From NCBI GenBank assembly GCA_016190245.1, contig JACPQY010000011.1, positions 62,001 to 126,000 on the forward strand: a stretch of DNA of 64,000 bases. Direction: 5' to 3'. The stretch comes from Nitrospirota bacterium (GTDB taxonomy: Bacteria; JACPQY01). The translations under genes and the position numbers were made by a program. Below the pieces are notes generated by a model. It did no database searches. It was not told the origin of the DNA and saw nothing but the letters and a program-made list of their open reading frames with translations. Numbering within the stretch: position 1 is the stretch's first letter; every line of letters starts with the position of its first letter. This document shows positions 2,768-25,703 of this stretch, one piece after another.

Positions 2768-4144
2768 ATGGAGAGCATTCTCGGGAGGCGGGCCCGCTCC
2801 CACCTCGCCCTCTGCCTCGCCGTCCTCATCGGGTTCGCGCCGGCGCGTAGAGCTTGGGCCGCGGGCTACACCGTGCCGGACACGGGCGCGCGCGCCCTCG
2901 GTCGCGGCGGCGCGTTCGTGGCGCACCCCACGGATCTCACTGCCTTCTACTACAACCCGGCGGGCCTCAATGCCGTGGAAAACGGCGCGCTCGCCGGCTT
3001 GTGGCTGATCCACACAAGAGCCTCCTTCCAACGCGCCCCCGAGGGGGGGACCACGTTCGAGAAGGAAGACAACGGCTCCGCCTTCTTCTTCACGATCCCC
3101 GCGCTCGTCGTGGCCCACGATTTCGGCGTGCCCCGCTTCAAGGCCGCGGCCGGATTCGTCACCCCCCTCAGCGGGGGATACAAGTTCGATCGCCGCGGTC
3201 CGCAGCGGTACTCCGTCATCGATTCCGAGGTCGGCGAGGCCTTCTACGGCGCGGGGGGGGCGTACGAGATCGTGCCGGGACTTTCGCTGGGCGTCGAAGC
3301 CCTCTTTACCTGGATCTACGCCCAGTTCGATCAGGCCTACACCGTGAGCCTCAATCGAGAAGACCACCCGGAGTCGGACGGTTTCTTCCACATGAACGCT
3401 GAGGCCGTGAACGTGCCCACATTCATGGTCGGTGTTCGTTACGCGCGCGGACGGCTGCACGCCGGCGCTTCCTACCAACCGCCCATCTCTCCGAAACTGA
3501 AGGGCGACGTGTCCGTCCAGCAGGACGCCGACTTCCAAACCATCCCGATCCGGATCGACGCCTCGAAGGGCATCACCGTGCCGCTCGATCTCCCCGCCCA
3601 GTTTCGGCTCGGGCTCGGCTACGAGGTGACCGCCCGCGTCTACGTCGAGGGCAACTTCACTTACACCCAGTGGGAGGATCTCCAGGAACTGGTAGCCGAC
3701 CTCGAGAGCAGCACGTTCACTCTTGCCGAGCCGATTCTCGGAATCATCGACAAGATCGACATCAACGACGTGGTCATGCCGCTCAAGTTCGAGAACTCCT
3801 ACGATGTTCGGTTGGGGGCCGACTGGCACGTTCTGCCCGCGTGGACCCTCCGGGCGGGCGGCCTCTACGAGACCTCGGCTATTCCGCCGCAGACGCAAAC
3901 CCCTTCCCTCCAAGACGCGCCTAAGCTCCTCCTGGCCACTGGCGCAACATGGTCCGTTGCTCGCTGGTCGTTCGATCTAGGCCTGGGATACCTCTTCTAC
4001 GAGGACCGCACTGTTGAAGACAGCGAGGTCGAGTGGGTCAACGCGCTGGAGGATATGAATCTGGGACCCGCCAAGTCCGTCGGCAATGGCACGTACGAGC
4101 ACGCCATCTCCAACCTCTCTCTGGCTGCAACCTATCGGTGGTAG
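2768..4144 (+). CDS. OmpP1/FadL/TodX-family outer membrane transporter
   Basis: Signal peptide then GYTVPDTGARALGRGGAFVAHPTDLTAFYYNPAGL, beta-rich, terminal aromatic YRW. Confidence 0.85.
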   Translation: MESILGRRARSHLALCLAVLIGFAPARRAWAAGYTVPDTGARALGRGGAFVAHPTDLTAFYYNPAGLNAVENGALAGLWLIHTRASFQRAPEGGTTFEKEDNGSAFFFTIPALVVAHDFGVPRFKAAAGFVTPLSGGYKFDRRGPQRYSVIDSEVGEAFYGAGGAYEIVPGLSLGVEALFTWIYAQFDQAYTVSLNREDHPESDGFFHMNAEAVNVPTFMVGVRYARGRLHAGASYQPPISPKLKGDVSVQQDADFQTIPIRIDASKGITVPLDLPAQFRLGLGYEVTARVYVEGNFTYTQWEDLQELVADLESSTFTLAEPILGIIDKIDINDVVMPLKFENSYDVRLGADWHVLPAWTLRAGGLYETSAIPPQTQTPSLQDAPKLLLATGATWSVARWSFDLGLGYLFYEDRTVEDSEVEWVNALEDMNLGPAKSVGNGTYEHAISNLSLAATYRW

Positions 4145-17790: not shown

Positions 17791-18615
17791 TCACGATATC
17801 GTGACGCTGCTCTTCTTTCCGAAAGGTGGATTGGTCAGGACCATCTCGTAGTGGCGACCGCCTTGGTCCGCGAGGGCATCCCGGACATCAATGGGCACCT
17901 TGTCCGCACCATTGCCTCCGATGCCGTGGAGGAGGAGATTCATGCAGCATAGACGGGCCACTCCGTCCACAAGCTCGATTCCGTAGAGCGTTCCGCTCTT
18001 GAGGCGCTTTTTCTGCTCGCGGTCGAGCGTGTGGTGTTGGGCGATGTAGTCGTGAGCCGCGAGAAGAAACCCGCCGGTTCCGCATGCGGGGTCGCAGAGG
18101 GTCATTCCGGGCTCGGGCCGCATCACGTCCACGAGGGCGGCGATGAGCGGACGCGGCGTGAAGTACTGGCCGGCGCCGCCCTTCACGTCCTCCGCGTTTT
18201 TCTGGAGAAGCCCCTCGTAAGCGTCACCTTTTACGTCGGCGGACAGGGACGACCAATTCTCCTTGTCGATCAGGTCCACGATGAGTCGCCTGAGTTTTGC
18301 GGGGTCCTGAATCTTGTTCTGGGCTTTCCGGAACACGAGTCCAAGCATGCCCTTCTCTTTTCCGAGCGATTCCAAGACGCGCCGGTAATGCGTTTCGAGT
18401 TCTTCGCCATCGCGGGCCGACAAACTCGGCCAGTCGGAGCCTTTCGGGATGGGAGAGGGCTTGTTGATCGGCGGCCGCGTCTGCTCATCCGCCATCTTGA
18501 GGAAGAGAAGGAACGTCAGTTGCTCGACGTAGTCGCCGTACGACAGCCCGTCATCCCGCAAGATGTTGCAGTAGTTCCAGAGCTTCTGGACGAGTTGTTG
18601 GGAATGGTCAGCCAT
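17791..18615 (-). pseudogene. hsdM: Type I restriction-modification DNA methyltransferase subunit M, 3'-truncated
   Basis: QKLWNYCNILRDDGLSYGDYVEQLTFLLFLKMADE, GQYFTPRPLIAALVDVM, DPACGTGGFLLAAH, NPPFGKKSSVTIS-stop at 274 aa. Confidence 0.85.
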
Positions 18616-18662
18616 GCTCCGCGATAAGTCCAGAATAAGTCAAGTATGAGTCAAGCACCCGA

Positions 18663-18881
18663 TCATTCGGCCCGAAGTTCCTTGAGATGCCGCGAAGACT
18701 CCCGGGCCTGCTCGCCGGTGTAGTACCGCGTCCGGCAATGGGAGCAGTACATGAACCGATCCTTGTGGAGCCGCCAGGTTTTCCCTTCGACGACCACCTT
18801 GCGGCAACCTATGGATTCCTTCGCCTCCCCTTTCCCGCAAACGCTGCACTTTTCGACCTTCACGACTTTCGGTCCTCTCAT
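18663..18881 (-). CDS. Small zinc-ribbon protein, weakly YgiT/MqsA N-domain-like
   Basis: 72 aa: CSVCGKGEAKESIGCRKVVVEGKTWRLHKDRFMYCSHCRTRYYTGEQARE (CxxC...CxxC). Confidence 0.6.
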   Translation of the reverse strand: MRGPKVVKVEKCSVCGKGEAKESIGCRKVVVEGKTWRLHKDRFMYCSHCRTRYYTGEQARESSRHLKELRAE

Positions 18882-18949
18882 TCTTCCGATTCTGTCGCTG
18901 ACTTTCGCATTCCGTGGAGTGGTGCCGGCGCGGCCTCCCCGCGGACCGG

Positions 18950-19342
18950 CTATTCCAAGCTGGCTGCAATCAGATGTCGAAAGATGTTGTCGCAGTACGT
19001 GTTCGCTGCCGCTGCCGCCAATCCAAGTTGGCCGTGCTTGAAGACCTCGTCGTAGTCCGCGGAACGGCGGTATTCCAACAGCTTTCGGAGGTCGCCTCCC
19101 AATTTCTGCCGATAGATCTGTCTGGATCTCGCGAATTGATCCCGGACAAAGGCGTGGACCTCTCTGTCGGGCAGAGCTACCCCACCCATGACCAAGAGGG
19201 ATCGCGAAAGGTGATAAGCTGCATAGTACGCCCTACTGATTGCGGATCTCCAGAGCGCCTCAACTTCACCGGGATCCTTCCCCACCCGCTGATTGACCAA
19301 CCAGCCTGACAATTTCCGGTACTCATCCCAGGCAAAACTCAT
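18950..19342 (-). CDS. HEPN-domain protein
   Basis: ALWRSAISRAYYAAYHLSRSLL: R-x6-H HEPN signature; ...RRSADYDEVFKHGQLGLAAAAANTYCDNIFRHL. Start ATG overlaps upstream stop (ATGA). Confidence 0.75.
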   Translation of the reverse strand: MSFAWDEYRKLSGWLVNQRVGKDPGEVEALWRSAISRAYYAAYHLSRSLLVMGGVALPDREVHAFVRDQFARSRQIYRQKLGGDLRKLLEYRRSADYDEVFKHGQLGLAAAAANTYCDNIFRHLIAASLE

Positions 19343-19896
19343 GTGAACGCCGGCAGAATGACGATCAGCCCGGAGGATGCCATCGGTTGTTTGAGCCACC
19401 ATTTGAAGTCGAACCGGTCCAGCCCTTCGATTGCGTCTTCGGGCGCCATTCCAGTTTCGACCTGTACGACCAGGTACTCCAATCCTTCTTCCTCATCCTT
19501 CGCCAGGCTCAATTGGAACCCGGTTACTTCCGGAACAAAACTACGGACCTGCTCGGGAACCTGCGCGAGCACGTCTTTCAGATCACCGTGTTCACGCAGG
19601 AAGGTCATCACGAGTCCATGGTCCAGAATGCGGTACCACTTCAGCAGGCTGGGAGAATCAACACTGGCCGCCAGGGAGGGCTGGCTGACTGCAATCGTCC
19701 ATTTGCTCCAATCGATGGAGTCCGACGTGAGTCTCAGGGTGTTGCAGACGGGCCGGGCCTGCGACTCCACAATCACTTTGGGGATACCCATTGAACCGGG
19801 ACCCAGCGAAGTGGACCCCCGCTGAGGTGGAGACCAAGGTGCCATGACGGAGGAATACTTGATGGCTGGCTCGCGGCCAGGGAGTCCGAGGTTCAT
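19339..19896 (-). CDS. Uncharacterised protein (185 aa), partner of the HEPN gene
   Basis: Start codon immediately follows the TAG of the upstream gene; stop overlaps HEPN start. Confidence 0.6.
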   Translation of the reverse strand: MNLGLPGREPAIKYSSVMAPWSPPQRGSTSLGPGSMGIPKVIVESQARPVCNTLRLTSDSIDWSKWTIAVSQPSLAASVDSPSLLKWYRILDHGLVMTFLREHGDLKDVLAQVPEQVRSFVPEVTGFQLSLAKDEEEGLEYLVVQVETGMAPEDAIEGLDRFDFKWWLKQPMASSGLIVILPAFT

Positions 19897-20640
19897 CTAC
19901 GCCGCCTTCTGCCGGCCAAATACGTCTCGGAGCCGGTCGGTTACGCATGATTCGAATGTGTCCTCGACCTGCCGATGCGCGTTCTCCACCCACGACAGCA
20001 TGGCTGACGATTCGAAGGCGGGCCTCTCGAACGAAAAGAAGTCGAGGTCGAATATCATTCCCATGTGTCCTGCTTTTGCCGCCTTCTGGCTGAGCAACTG
20101 TAAACGGAGCCGATTCCTTCCCTCATCGCATAAAAGCTCAAATCCGGCCATGAACGCAGCCACCGGGGGATGTCCCCCATAGTCAAAGTAAGGGAAGAAC
20201 CGGAGATAGTCGCCAATCCGCGCATTCTCAGGGATCTCGAAATGATTGATATAGCGAAGGGTCTGCCCTTGGATTCCCTTCGGCTGGGCGATGGTCATGT
20301 ACTCGCGCAGTGCATGCTGAATCATCGGTAAGTAGTTGACCCAACGCTCGTAGGGGTTGAGGCGGCTGACGGCCAATACGTGCGGCCCCAGAAGGATGAT
20401 GCTCTTCGCGTTAGAAGTGGAGAACCGAATGACGGGAGTTGTTCTGACCTCTTGCTCGAGGATTTCGGATTCAGACTTTATCTGCGAATCGATCCGGGTT
20501 AGATCCTGCCTTTGAGAGAACTCGGACTGGATGGCTTGATAGTACATGCCCGGAACCGTGCTGTCCCACGGGCCTGATGGGTCAAACCGAAACTCGCAGA
20601 CGGCCTCATGAAGAGGAGGGGTTACGTATTTTCCCGGCAT
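19897..20640 (-). CDS. TIGR04255-like family protein
   Basis: PPLHEAVCEFRFDPSGPWD...; LRYINHFEIPENARIGDYLRFFPYF; overall length and layout resemble the TIGR04255 family (from memory, unsearched). Confidence 0.55.
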   Translation of the reverse strand: MPGKYVTPPLHEAVCEFRFDPSGPWDSTVPGMYYQAIQSEFSQRQDLTRIDSQIKSESEILEQEVRTTPVIRFSTSNAKSIILLGPHVLAVSRLNPYERWVNYLPMIQHALREYMTIAQPKGIQGQTLRYINHFEIPENARIGDYLRFFPYFDYGGHPPVAAFMAGFELLCDEGRNRLRLQLLSQKAAKAGHMGMIFDLDFFSFERPAFESSAMLSWVENAHRQVEDTFESCVTDRLRDVFGRQKAA

Positions 20641-20708
20641 GCTCGCCCAATTCTACACCCTGAAGACGTAGAAGTACCAGTTCGAAACGAGAGCGGATTT
20701 CAAGATTC

Positions 20709-21371
20709 TCACTCGTATGCCACGAAACGCGGTGCGAGCATCTTCGCAAGCGCGGGCGTGCCGGCCTCCGGGATGAGTGGCGCAAATCCTTGAACACACG
20801 TGGGATTCCACGTGAAGAAAATCCCCGCCAATCGGTCGATCGGCTCGGATCTCAGAACGTTGATGGCCGCCTGGATTTCGGCGTCTTCAACGTTGTGGGC
20901 GCTTTCAGACCACAGGTATACGAAGAACATGCCCCTCGTACCATCGTTCTTCGATGCCTTCTTGCGAATGGCTTCAATCAACTGCGCCTGCACTTCCTTC
21001 GGATTGCCGTACTCGGGGAGCACCCCGGTTCCCCGAGCTTCGCGGAACCGCCTTTCATCATTGGCGTCTTCGTCGCGCCACCGAAATTTCTTCACCTCGA
21101 TCGCCATCTCTTCCGTTGAGAGGCGGACCATCAGATCGGGGTGTTCGCCGAATTCCAAGCGTGAAACACTTGGTAGGGAGATGAACTGAGCAGCCGCACG
21201 AATCTCCGTCGCGATATCGGCCGCGGTGTCAGGCGATTTCGCGTTTTCACGGATTTGCTCCAGCTTGCGGCCGAGGGAATCCTGATCAACGGCGCTGCTT
21301 TCGCGGAGTGCTTGCAGGCATGCCCTGAATTGTTCATCTGCGGGCAGCTCACCCGTCGTCGGCGCATTCAT
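20709..21371 (-). CDS. Predicted PD-(D/E)XK-like nuclease, coupled to hsdS
   Basis: LEFGEHPDLMVRLSTEEMAIEVKKFRW (PD-x10-ExK arrangement); ATGA overlap with hsdS stop. Confidence 0.55.
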   Translation of the reverse strand: MNAPTTGELPADEQFRACLQALRESSAVDQDSLGRKLEQIRENAKSPDTAADIATEIRAAAQFISLPSVSRLEFGEHPDLMVRLSTEEMAIEVKKFRWRDEDANDERRFREARGTGVLPEYGNPKEVQAQLIEAIRKKASKNDGTRGMFFVYLWSESAHNVEDAEIQAAINVLRSEPIDRLAGIFFTWNPTCVQGFAPLIPEAGTPALAKMLAPRFVAYE

Positions 21372-22726
21372 AGCCCGCCCGAGAACGCCGCGTGCAAGAT
21401 GGATTGGCGAAGGCGGGAGGCGCGGGAGAGGTTGGTGGCGACGACTTTTTCCAATTCCTTGACCGCGCTCAACCGGCGCTCGACTTCGGCGAAGATGCGG
21501 AGTTGCGCGGCAAGCGGCGGGATGGGTATGGGAAGGCTCTTCAGGGTCTCGATATTGATTCCGGTATACGCGATGCCCTTGGTACGTGCCAGCAACCATG
21601 CCTGGGAACGAGGAGAAGCGATGAAAATGCTCGTGGCCCGCGCAATTCCTGAGTCTACTAAGGCAAGCATTGCCACTTCACGAGAAATGTTGAAACCCGA
21701 ACACTCGCGAGGAATCACGACCACCCCGCCTAGCGTTCCGCGGACGGTTACAAGAACCTCATCGCCTTGTAAGAAAGTGCGTTTGAATCTGGCGGCGATG
21801 CGAGGAGACACGCGCTTCACATTCCCCAGGCCAAGTTGTAGGCTGCGGACGTCGCTTGATCTCAATACGGGAATGCCATTCTCGACCGAATCTCCAAGAT
21901 TGATTACACCGTACGTTATCGAACGAACTGGATCGGTCAGTTGTTCGGCTGTTGCCCACGCCCAGCCATCAGGGAGTCGGGGGAGGTTGGAGGTGTCCGG
22001 GGGCTTGGGGTCGACGTATTTCTTATTGCGACCATTTTTCTTCTGATCTTTTTCCCAGGCTTCGCGGCGGGCGGAGAGGATGCGTGCAAGGAGTTGGGCG
22101 CCGGTTTCAAAGGGGCGACCTTCCTTGCGGGCGAGTTCGGCTTCGGTGGGAACGAGTTTCCCTTCGCACGCGGCTTTGAGAACGGCGGCGCGGTAGCGTT
22201 CCAGATTGGCCTGCACGCGCTTGAGCGCGGCCACCCCCGCCTCCAGCCGGGTGAACTGTTTCTCGATCTCGGCAACGATCCGCTGCTGTTCCCTTTCCGG
22301 CGGAACCAGCACGGGAATCTGCTTCATCGGTCCCTGCGGTAGCTTCAAGCGTGTGGTTCCACTGACATAGGGGCGATAGTCGAGATTGTTCAGTTGGTAG
22401 AGGAGAAAGGAATTCAGCAGTCCCGGCTTGGCCCGGAGCACATGCGCGTGATTACTTACCCACGACTTGCCGCGAATCAGATAGGCTTTCGGTTTCGTTG
22501 GATCGAGGAACGGAGCGCCATCCTCGCCAAGAAGGACAAGTTCTTCATCGAATATAGGTGTGTCGATCCAGCCCACTTGGCCCGTCGCCCCGTAGTACGG
22601 AATCTGCCCCTGGCGTTTTTCCCGTTCCGTACTGTTGACGGGAATTCGATGTGAGTCGAGAATGTCCACTGCCTCTCTCAGTGGAACGGTGGCATGCCCA
22701 GCCTCAGTCGTGATGCCAGTGCTCAC
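21368..22726 (-). CDS. hsdS: Type I restriction-modification specificity subunit S
   Basis: Two target-recognition halves with IPVLVPPEREQQRIVAEIEKQFTRLEAGVAALKR and LPIPIPPLAAQLRIFAEVERRLSAVKELE coiled-coil motifs. Confidence 0.9.
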   Translation of the reverse strand: MSTGITTEAGHATVPLREAVDILDSHRIPVNSTEREKRQGQIPYYGATGQVGWIDTPIFDEELVLLGEDGAPFLDPTKPKAYLIRGKSWVSNHAHVLRAKPGLLNSFLLYQLNNLDYRPYVSGTTRLKLPQGPMKQIPVLVPPEREQQRIVAEIEKQFTRLEAGVAALKRVQANLERYRAAVLKAACEGKLVPTEAELARKEGRPFETGAQLLARILSARREAWEKDQKKNGRNKKYVDPKPPDTSNLPRLPDGWAWATAEQLTDPVRSITYGVINLGDSVENGIPVLRSSDVRSLQLGLGNVKRVSPRIAARFKRTFLQGDEVLVTVRGTLGGVVVIPRECSGFNISREVAMLALVDSGIARATSIFIASPRSQAWLLARTKGIAYTGINIETLKSLPIPIPPLAAQLRIFAEVERRLSAVKELEKVVATNLSRASRLRQSILHAAFSGGL

Positions 22727-25503
22727 GCCGCCAAGGCCTCGTTGAGTTCATCCAGCAGCTTCGGAAAAGATTCGCCGAAAAGCCGGTGCGCCTTGCCGAG
22801 TCCGCCGCGCTGACTGAAGGGGGAATAATCGAAATCCTGCGGCTCAATGCTCAGACTCGTGGCGATGTGGTCGCGGATGAGTTCGAGCCACGCCAGTTGC
22901 TCGTCGCTGAAAGAAGTCCCGTTGGAGATCTTGGCCAAAACCCATGTCTTGAACCGAGCGTGGACGCTCTCGGCGAACGGTTCAAGAACCGGCTGGTGGG
23001 CCAGAGAGAAGTGAACCAGCGATACGAGGTCTGCAAATCGGCCCGCTTGGGATCGTCCGCGCACTTTCGTCGGCTCGACGGCGGCGAAGGCATCCCAAAG
23101 ACGGTCCTCGGTCCACGCCGCATGGTTTTCCCGAAGCTTCCGTTCCAGATCCTTCAACATGGCCTCCGTCAGCCGGTGGCGATAGGGACGAGAATAAAGA
23201 ATCTGAAGCGCTTCGATCTCGGACTTGTGCTTCTCGATGTAATCGCGAAATGACACTGTGGTCTTCCGAGCGTTAAGATCAGACTGGGTCGTGCCTCCGG
23301 CAAAGAGAACGCGGTCCCTTGAAATCACGTCGATGACTTGGTCCGCCGTCCGATGCACTTTGATCAAGAACTGCCGTAGATCCGGATTCCCCGCGAGTGG
23401 CGCGGCAGCCGCCTGCGCAAGGCCATCGGCAGCGGCTTTCAAGGACGTGGCGGTCGGTTCCTTGTAGCCCGGCGGACCACCACCTGCCGCCGCCAGGATC
23501 TTGTCCGGATTGGCGGCGTCAAGCAGGCTACCCGCAATTTCCGAAAGCGTCCTGCCTTTCGCCGTCGCCTGCACTTCCGAAACGAGGTGATCGTCGAGTC
23601 GCTTTTCCAATCGGATCAACCGGTTGGCCAGACTTTCCAACGAATCGGCATCCCGTGCCCCCAGCGCCACGGCGTCGAGAAGTTTCTCGAATGGAACATT
23701 GGGCTTCTTCTCAAGCGGACGGGAATCGGTCTTGTCCCGTTCGCAGACCCCGACGGCATCCACGATCACGAACCGCGATTTTCTCTTAATCCCGGGATTG
23801 ACCTGCTCCATCTCCGTTTCCGAGATCACGCGCACGCCCCGACCCTTCATCTGTTCGAAGAAACTGCGCGACTTGACTGAGCGCATGAAGAAGACGATTT
23901 CCAACGGCTTGATGTCCGTCCCCGTCGCGATCATATCGACGGTGACGGCAATGCGCGGGTCGTAGCTGTTCCGGAACGTCTTGATGAGAGTTTTCGGGTC
24001 CACGCCGGTGGTGAGATACGTGATCTTCTGGCAGAAGTCGTTCCCCTTGTCGAAGACTTCGCGACAGATGCGGACGATATCCTCCGCGTGGGAATCGTCC
24101 TTCGCGTAGATCAACGTCTTGGGAACGTTCTCGCGTCCCGGAAAGATCTCAGTAAACAACTTATCCCGAAAGGTCTCGATCACGGTGCGAATCTGGTCCT
24201 CGGCAACGACTTCCCGGTCGAGCTGATTGGCCTCGTAGGTCAAGTCCTCATCGAGCTGTTCCCACCGTTTCTTGCGCGTGAGGCGGTCGCGTTTGTCGAC
24301 GTAGAATCCGGCATCCACCTTCGAGCCGCTCTCGGTAATCTGCGTCCGGATTTTGTATACATCGTAGGGCACGTTGACGCCGTCCGTTACCGCCTGCTCA
24401 TGGCCGTATTCCATCACGAGATTTTGCTTGAAGAAACCGAAGGTCTGTTTCGAGGGCGTGGCCGTGAGGCCGACGAGGGTGGCGTCGAAATATTCCAGGA
24501 CCTGGCGCCAAAGGTGGTAGATCGAGCGATGGCACTCGTCCGTGACGATGAAATCGAACGTCTCGATGGGGAATTTCGGATTGTACTCCACGGGGACGGG
24601 TTCCTTGAAGCCCGATTCCGCCGCTTCGATGCCGAGGTCGTCCAAATCGGGCGGCGGCTGCGTTTCGCCCTTCAACATGGAGTAGACGCGCTGAATGGTT
24701 CCGATCACGACGCGGGCGGAGGTGTCGAGCGTGTTCGAGGTCAGATGCTGAATGATATGTTCGTTCGGAAACTTGAGGTTGTTGACCGGGGATTCGAACT
24801 GTTGGAATTCTTTCAGGGTTTGATCGCCGAGGTTTCCCCGGTCCACCAGGAAGAGGATTCGGCGGGCGCCGGCGTATTTGACGAGACGGTAAACGAAATT
24901 GACCGCCGTGAACGTTTTCCCCGCGCCGGTGGCCATCTGGATGAGCGCCCGGGGGCGGTTCGCGGCGAAGGATCTTTCCAGATTTTCGATGGCCGTGATC
25001 TGCGCGGGCCACAGGGCCTTTTCGACCAGTGGGGGCATTTCGCGGAGCCGTTGGTGGAGTTGCTTCTCGGCTTTCACCCAGTCGAGGAGCGTTTCGGGAC
25101 GGTGAAACGCGAACACGAGGCGGCTGCGGGGCTCTGGATCGAGTCCGTTGGTGAAAAACGTTTCCATGCCGGTGCTCTCATAGGCGAATGGAAGTGGATC
25201 CCGCCACGCCTGCATGCCGGAAGGTACTCCCCTGATGTACTTCCCGGACTGTTCTTCGACGCCGCTGAGGGTGTGACCCTCCTTCTTGGCTTCAACCGTT
25301 CCGATGGCCTTGCCGTCCACGAACAAAGTGTAGTCCGGCTCGCCGGTTATCATGGAAAGATTGCAGAGGGCCACGCCACTTGAAGCGGCGAGATTCGCGC
25401 TCGACTTTTCCTGGACGGCCCACCCGCAACGCTCCAAGATCTCATCGATGTTCCCCCGAGCTTTGTCTTCGGGTGTTCTTATGCGTGGGCCTGGGGGGAT
25501 CAT
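22723..25503 (-). CDS. hsdR: Type I restriction-modification endonuclease subunit R
   Basis: PDYTLFVDGKAIGTVEAKK nuclease motif; MATGAGKTFTAVNF, TDECHRSIYHLW, VGLTATPSKQTFGFF, MKGRGVRV. Confidence 0.93.
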   Translation of the reverse strand: MIPPGPRIRTPEDKARGNIDEILERCGWAVQEKSSANLAASSGVALCNLSMITGEPDYTLFVDGKAIGTVEAKKEGHTLSGVEEQSGKYIRGVPSGMQAWRDPLPFAYESTGMETFFTNGLDPEPRSRLVFAFHRPETLLDWVKAEKQLHQRLREMPPLVEKALWPAQITAIENLERSFAANRPRALIQMATGAGKTFTAVNFVYRLVKYAGARRILFLVDRGNLGDQTLKEFQQFESPVNNLKFPNEHIIQHLTSNTLDTSARVVIGTIQRVYSMLKGETQPPPDLDDLGIEAAESGFKEPVPVEYNPKFPIETFDFIVTDECHRSIYHLWRQVLEYFDATLVGLTATPSKQTFGFFKQNLVMEYGHEQAVTDGVNVPYDVYKIRTQITESGSKVDAGFYVDKRDRLTRKKRWEQLDEDLTYEANQLDREVVAEDQIRTVIETFRDKLFTEIFPGRENVPKTLIYAKDDSHAEDIVRICREVFDKGNDFCQKITYLTTGVDPKTLIKTFRNSYDPRIAVTVDMIATGTDIKPLEIVFFMRSVKSRSFFEQMKGRGVRVISETEMEQVNPGIKRKSRFVIVDAVGVCERDKTDSRPLEKKPNVPFEKLLDAVALGARDADSLESLANRLIRLEKRLDDHLVSEVQATAKGRTLSEIAGSLLDAANPDKILAAAGGGPPGYKEPTATSLKAAADGLAQAAAAPLAGNPDLRQFLIKVHRTADQVIDVISRDRVLFAGGTTQSDLNARKTTVSFRDYIEKHKSEIEALQILYSRPYRHRLTEAMLKDLERKLRENHAAWTEDRLWDAFAAVEPTKVRGRSQAGRFADLVSLVHFSLAHQPVLEPFAESVHARFKTWVLAKISNGTSFSDEQLAWLELIRDHIATSLSIEPQDFDYSPFSQRGGLGKAHRLFGESFPKLLDELNEALAA

Positions 25504-25631
25504 AGGAGAATCACCCTGGGGGGACAAGCTTACGGGCGTGCAGGTTGGGACCCCCCACGCGCCCCTGCACAGCGACAAAGAGGGATGGAAAACAGGGGTG
25601 AGGTCGGCTAACCTTGCCAAGACACCACAGA

Positions 25632-25703
25632 GCCGGCGTAGCTCAATGGTAGAGCGAGGGTCTCATAAGCCCTAGGTCGGCCGTTCGATCCGGCCCGCCG
25701 GCA
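25632..25703 (+). tRNA. tRNA-Met (CAU anticodon)
   Basis: Acceptor GCCGGCG/CGCCGGC, D-arm GCTC..GAGC, anticodon arm AGGGT-CTCATAA-GCCCT, T-arm GGCCG-TTCGATC-CGGCC. Confidence 0.93.

Follow-up and report, generated by a model that had tools for sequence, protein, structure and literature searches.

HEPN toxins, three-part toxin-antitoxin (TA) systems and HEPN genes in restriction-modification (R-M) operons are already known. PrrC is a HEPN anticodon nuclease that is encoded in the Type IC operon EcoprrI (PMC3874165). In HEPN-T proteins an aspartate replaces the classical histidine, a second conserved histidine is located upstream, and clustering with R-M genes has been noted; some HEPN families are inactive (Anantharaman et al. 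2013, PMC3710099). The active site of the retron-Kva2 HEPN protein consists of H64, R122 and Y40-42, mutants of which lose defence, and RNA fragments appear upon activation of the retron (preprint, PMC13405049).

The window, i.e. the whole 64,000-nucleotide stretch of Nitrospirota DNA analysed here, contains a Type I R-M operon with five further genes inserted. The first-pass annotation had placed hsdR, hsdS, a PD-ExK-like gene, a TIGR04255-like gene, a 185-aa gene, a HEPN gene, a CxxC gene and hsdM in this order on the minus strand, and the open reading frames, profiles and sequence bear this out. The EcoEI-like hsdR (22723-25515; all coordinates on the minus strand) has Pfam matches to EcoEI_R_C and ResIII, and hsdS (21368-22726) has two stretches of specificity domain matched by PF01420. 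These are followed by the gene of a PD-(D/E)xK-like protein of 220 aa (20709-21371) with the motif E..PDL..EVK, a TIGR04255 family gene (19897-20640; 247 aa, NCBIfam E-value 5e-35), the gene of the 185-aa predicted antitoxin, hereafter MID (19339-19896), delineated by family alignment and a structure model, and the gene of a predicted HEPN-T RNase toxin (18950-19342), recognised by a family profile and the invariant residues Y39, H63, R92 and Y97. A gene for a CxxC..CxxC protein of 72 aa (18663-18881) and a truncated hsdM of 274 aa (17791-18615) complete the operon. TIGR04255, MID and HEPN, in this order, are referred to as the trio; the PD-ExK and CxxC genes lie outside it. The TAG|ATG junction between TIGR04255 and MID and the ATGA overlaps of MID with HEPN and of hsdS with PD-ExK were read directly in the sequence. 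The overlap of hsdR with hsdS, earlier given as ATGA, is actually GTGA, and the start codon of hsdS is GTG. The conserved start of HEPN is the ATG at 19342; a longer open reading frame from 19402 is merely mechanical.

The stretch of about 17800-25700 forms a single low-GC island, with a GC content of 0.545-0.61 compared to 0.65-0.69 further out, and one end of it adjoins a tRNA-Met gene (25632-25703). A search for flanking repeats of an integrated element around the island revealed none that was convincing. The truncation of hsdM had escaped the first-pass annotation. The N6_Mtase profile match reaches only position 138 of 311, and the reading frame stops after NPPFGKKSSVTIS, i.e. just past the NPPF motif. 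The second half of the gene was not found in the rest of the genome assembly, which is 85% complete. A functional Type I R-M system requires a full-length HsdM, and with hsdM truncated the system of the window is therefore probably inactive. The cut could be due either to decay of the island at that edge or to a wrong assembly there.

Among the 383 genomes searched, TIGR04255 was present in 50 and MID in 18, and in the MID-bearing genomes the usual neighbours of MID are TIGR04255, immediately before it, and a HEPN gene, immediately after it. A genome-wide scan with a three-sequence TIGR04255 alignment as the seed yielded 56 loci. TIGR04255–MID–HEPN was observed on one strand and in the same order in 36 fetched loci including the window, i.e. 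in 35 distinct ones as L051 and L099 are one contig; three of the 36 copies (L057, L105 and L146) are partial or split. The genes mostly overlap or abut, and the loci are spread over at least 13 phyla (13 named), the archaeon Methanosaeta included. A Thermus plasmid, pTB1 of Thermus brockianus (L032), carries the trio as well; the same stretch of pTB1 also has a VapC-type pair, an argonaute PAZ-domain protein and cas6. The MID–HEPN pair was seen without TIGR04255 in L058, L060 and L065, and TIGR04255 is therefore the least obligatory member of the trio. Broken copies (L057, L062 and L135) are what would be expected of an element that is gained and lost. In L061, a single frame (2773-3288) fuses the start of TIGR04255 to MID, and no HEPN gene was found downstream; this could be a natural fusion or the result of an internal deletion. 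In two Clostridia MAGs (L103 and L104) the HEPN trio is located between phosphoglycerate kinase- and triosephosphate isomerase-like genes, identified by eye, with no R-M genes near. The first-pass annotation had named recurrence of the trio in defence islands with conserved order as its test. Recurrence and order were confirmed at about 35 distinct loci, more than expected by chance, but outside R-M few of these loci are in what can be recognised as a defence island. We conclude that the trio is a horizontally mobile cassette, and an autonomous one since most copies have no adjacent R-M gene.

The reading that we favour, and hold to be rather probable, is that TIGR04255–MID–HEPN is a self-contained, mobile TA-type cassette that R-M operons have captured on repeated occasions. 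In nearly all loci the MID and HEPN genes overlap or abut with MID first, which is the gene layout of Type II TA systems, and from its position, this overlap and the analogy MID is predicted to be the antitoxin. In the AlphaFold2 model of MID, about 80 residues at the N-terminus are disordered, and a small alpha/beta domain, modelled with confidence, follows. Profile searches with MID (Pfam, NCBIfam, PADLOC) and a fold search with its small domain gave no match, and no similarity to known antitoxins was found by either profile or fold. The TIGR04255 protein belongs to its family with 121.5 bits against an NCBIfam cut-off of 30, and the match covers model positions 2-251 of 252. It was modelled by AlphaFold2 as a two-lobed alpha/beta fold (pLDDT 89.7, pTM 0.87), for which no usable match was found in the PDB (the best being TBP-like with a TM of about 0.27); the best viral model was an unnamed protein (TM 0.50-0.59). 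None of the trio proteins had a convincing match in PADLOC. A search for a TIGR04255-docking motif common to MID and the PIN-partner proteins gave no significant result (best E-value 0.014). When compared with phages, the TIGR04255 protein of L054 had no match, and for that of Klebsiella the sole match was a prophage-like Acinetobacter record; a search of E. coli genomes did not recover the Klebsiella cassette. The TIGR04255 proteins of L093 and L094, from an archaeal-labelled and a Nitrospirae MAG, respectively, are 97% identical, reflecting either a recent transfer or a binning error.

In five genomes (L092, L100, L101, L102 and L107), the trio stands within a Type III system as a contiguous Mod–TIGR04255–MID–HEPN–Res arrangement of overlapping genes, Res being interrupted by the contig end in L102; in the two loci tested, L092 and L107, Mod matched PF01555 and Res PF04851. 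Res was found on the sequenced side in L096 and L131, and Mod–TIGR04255 at contig ends in L116 and L138. L135 is a decayed version of the Type III arrangement, and in L081 the trio adjoins a Type ISP enzyme. With the Type I operon of the window, the R-M partners are thus of unrelated types (I, III and ISP). These genomes contain 261 PF01555 genes in about 94 Mb, and a PF01555 gene was located directly upstream in 5 of 34 cases (P about 4e-8 if these are independent, 1e-4 for three), with a chance expectation of about 0.1 in 34 on the assumption of about one gene per kb. The link to R-M is therefore a recurrent one, as had been suspected from the window. R-M adjacency undergoes up to 9 changes on the TIGR04255 tree. 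At most trio loci no R-M gene was recognised next to the cassette; R-M genes were detected with seed profiles, so that the count of adjacent ones is a lower bound. The mod gene of L107 (6941-9994, 1018 aa) contains DUF559 and a below-cut-off intein-splicing match; this is possibly an intein with a homing nuclease in a restriction methylase.

The contiguous, overlapping Type III arrangement, the up to nine separate adjacency changes and the precedent of PrrC (PMC3874165; PMC3710099) would also agree with a coupling in which the R-M complex restrains the HEPN RNase and phage inhibition of restriction frees it, the cassette being an R-M accessory. We regard this as unlikely, as most trio loci are without an adjacent R-M gene, the R-M partners belong to unrelated types, and in the window the trio is intact beside a truncated hsdM. 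The open trio next to a broken hsdM argues against restraint by HsdM here. Due to the same truncation, it is unlikely that the trio is triggered by the Type I complex in this genome, which the first-pass annotation had considered.

The HEPN protein consists of a single domain of about 130 aa. Alone, the window protein scores below the Pfam cut-off, and Pfam HEPN matches 7 of 14 family members with E-values up to 0.1. At the family level the assignment survives: a profile of 31 members matched solved HEPN structures (9xbd with an E-value of 1e-9, 2hsb with 0.04) and the HEPN protein of retron-Kva2 at 2.5e-4. The R-x6-H (R37..H44) that had been taken for the catalytic site does not hold, as H44 is present in 1 of 31 members, the window protein itself, and position 44 is a cysteine in 26. 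On the other hand, R37, Y39, H63, R92 and Y97 are invariant in 31/31 and D96 is found in 29/31. Instead of the canonical Rx4-6H motif, the family has R92-x3-D96-Y97, and the alternative HEPN-T site, a basic residue plus a second conserved histidine upstream, is present as R92 and H63 in all 31. Judged from the alignment, H63 and R92, not R-x6-H, are the residues predicted to bear on activity. Together with Y39/Y40 they correspond to H64, R122 and Y40-42 of retron-Kva2; H64 aligned to the invariant histidine within the scored alignment, and R92 matches R122 via the common R-x3-D-Y motif in an unscored alignment segment. As the residues are invariant and match both the retron-Kva2 active site and the HEPN-T pattern, HEPN is likely an active RNase. 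The missing canonical motif and the existence of inactive HEPN families (PMC3710099) might instead suggest an RNA-binding protein, with the trio regulating neighbouring genes. Such a non-catalytic role is improbable, given that H63, R92, Y39 and Y97 are invariant in every member as for an active site and that defence by the related HEPN of retron-Kva2 depends on the corresponding residues (PMC13405049).

Searches with PD-ExK against Pfam, NCBIfam, PADLOC and the PDB returned no profile match; the basis of the assignment is the motif E..PDL..(A/I)E(V/I)(K/R) common to three homologues, and two standalone homologues share the motif of the window protein. Of 382 other genomes, 2 have a PD-ExK homologue, in neither case near R-M genes. 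The CxxC protein resembles the N-terminus of MqsA-type antitoxins (TIGR03830 with an E-value of 7e-5, below the cut-off) and has a weak homologue in 1 of the 382 genomes. Neither gene was seen beside the trio at other loci. Only the trio travels together, and its cassette does not include the PD-ExK and CxxC genes. The location of the inserted genes on one strand with short spacers, without a good match in a minus-strand promoter scan inside the insert, and within a single low-GC island would fit the original proposal that all five and hsdRSM form one defence system, which we dismiss as highly improbable because homologues of PD-ExK and CxxC are few, none of them was seen together with the trio, and hsdM is broken.

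In the self-contained TA-type cassette that we favour, HEPN would be the toxin, an RNase with a non-canonical HEPN-T site (H63, R92, Y39/Y40), and it would probably cleave tRNA or some other RNA of translation. MID, whose gene is directly 5' of HEPN and translationally coupled to it, would be the antitoxin that holds the toxin silent. The TIGR04255 protein, common to cassettes with PIN and zeta toxins, would be the third component and would probably fold, hold or release the antitoxin, or sense the trigger. Infection or loss of the antitoxin would release the toxin. Within an R-M operon, the cassette would be co-expressed with restriction and could serve as a suicidal fallback to it, much as PrrC backs up restriction in EcoprrI (PMC3874165). 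Here the trio probably acts alone, since it is still open whereas one half of hsdM is gone from the hsd operon.

Where MID is absent, TIGR04255 genes come first in a three-gene layout of this kind, and other gene pairs follow them. The third gene encodes a PIN protein in six loci (L087, L090, L094, L095, L121 and L130; Pfam), a zeta toxin in a TIGR04255 cassette on a Vibrio plasmid, and in other cassettes families without a named function, such as DUF7689 in L071. PIN and zeta are proven families of toxins, and the short second gene of some PIN cassettes is located where a VapB antitoxin gene would be expected. The third gene of L072, L074, L088 and L125 belongs to an unknown family ending PPYREHLSQAFARFFMRVGLP, a candidate new toxin family. 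In seven loci (L134, L136, L137, L139, L141, L142 and L077) the second gene is HEAT-like and the third gene, an unknown one, starts near ITRAKW; the cassette of L077 is inserted in a Type III system, with mod on one side and res on the other. In the cyanobacterium Iningainema (L133, 10001-14491), the third gene of a TIGR04255 cassette of another class is followed after 2 bp by a Type I hsdM. On the TIGR04255 tree, many inner branches of which are weakly supported, the class of the third gene changes 8 times compared with 28 when shuffled, and one PIN group is placed among HEPN cassettes. The change count indicates that partners are mostly inherited and sometimes swapped. We tentatively suggest, as a real possibility somewhat short of probable, that TIGR04255 defines an undescribed superfamily of cassettes with a variable antitoxin and an exchangeable HEPN, PIN, zeta or unknown toxin, which serve as R-M plug-in suicide modules with TIGR04255 as their common regulator or sensor.

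The NCBI name of the TIGR04255 family says only "sporadic", and in the 5.39 million open-access papers searched we found no mention of it, nor any account of it as the gene that cassettes of this kind have in common. The family now gains a likely role and testable partners. The Type III and Type I operons would be a tangible example of DNA restriction combined with RNase-based suicide in one package, and the toxin slot appears to be swapped among HEPN, PIN and zeta proteins. Among the third genes, the families of the DUF7689, 'ITRAKW' and 'PPYREHLSQAF' types are candidate new toxins.

In comparison with known systems, the trio HEPN resembles HEPN-T proteins (PF05168, AF0298/UPF0332 type) and the HEPN of retron-Kva2 (type IX) in profile fold, in the aspartate replacing the classical histidine, in the second histidine upstream and in R-x3-D-Y; the clustering with R-M genes has likewise been reported for HEPN-T (PMC3710099). 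However, its partners are MID and TIGR04255, where the known systems have a nucleotidyltransferase or a reverse transcriptase with msDNA. As in MNT–HEPN type II TA systems, a partner gene precedes the HEPN toxin, but the adjacent minimal nucleotidyltransferase is absent; MID was rejected as an MNT as it had no nucleotidyltransferase family match and no such fold among its best matches. With TAC systems the trio shares three genes, predicted here to encode an RNase toxin, an antitoxin and a shared third protein, and the long disordered segment of MID could in principle be bound by a chaperone, as in TAC. The order third component–antitoxin–toxin is, however, the reverse of higB-higA-secB (PMC9098466), and a SecB-like TIGR04255 was rejected, with no SecB among PDB-sequence profile matches up to an E-value of 1 or among the 50 best folds. 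Like PrrC in EcoprrI, the predicted HEPN RNase gene lies inside a restriction operon in the window and in the five Type III loci. In PrrC, an N-terminal ABC NTPase is fused to HEPN, whereas the trio HEPN is small, has no ABC domain and is accompanied by separate partner genes, and the trio occurs mostly without R-M genes and, besides Type I, with Type III and ISP systems.
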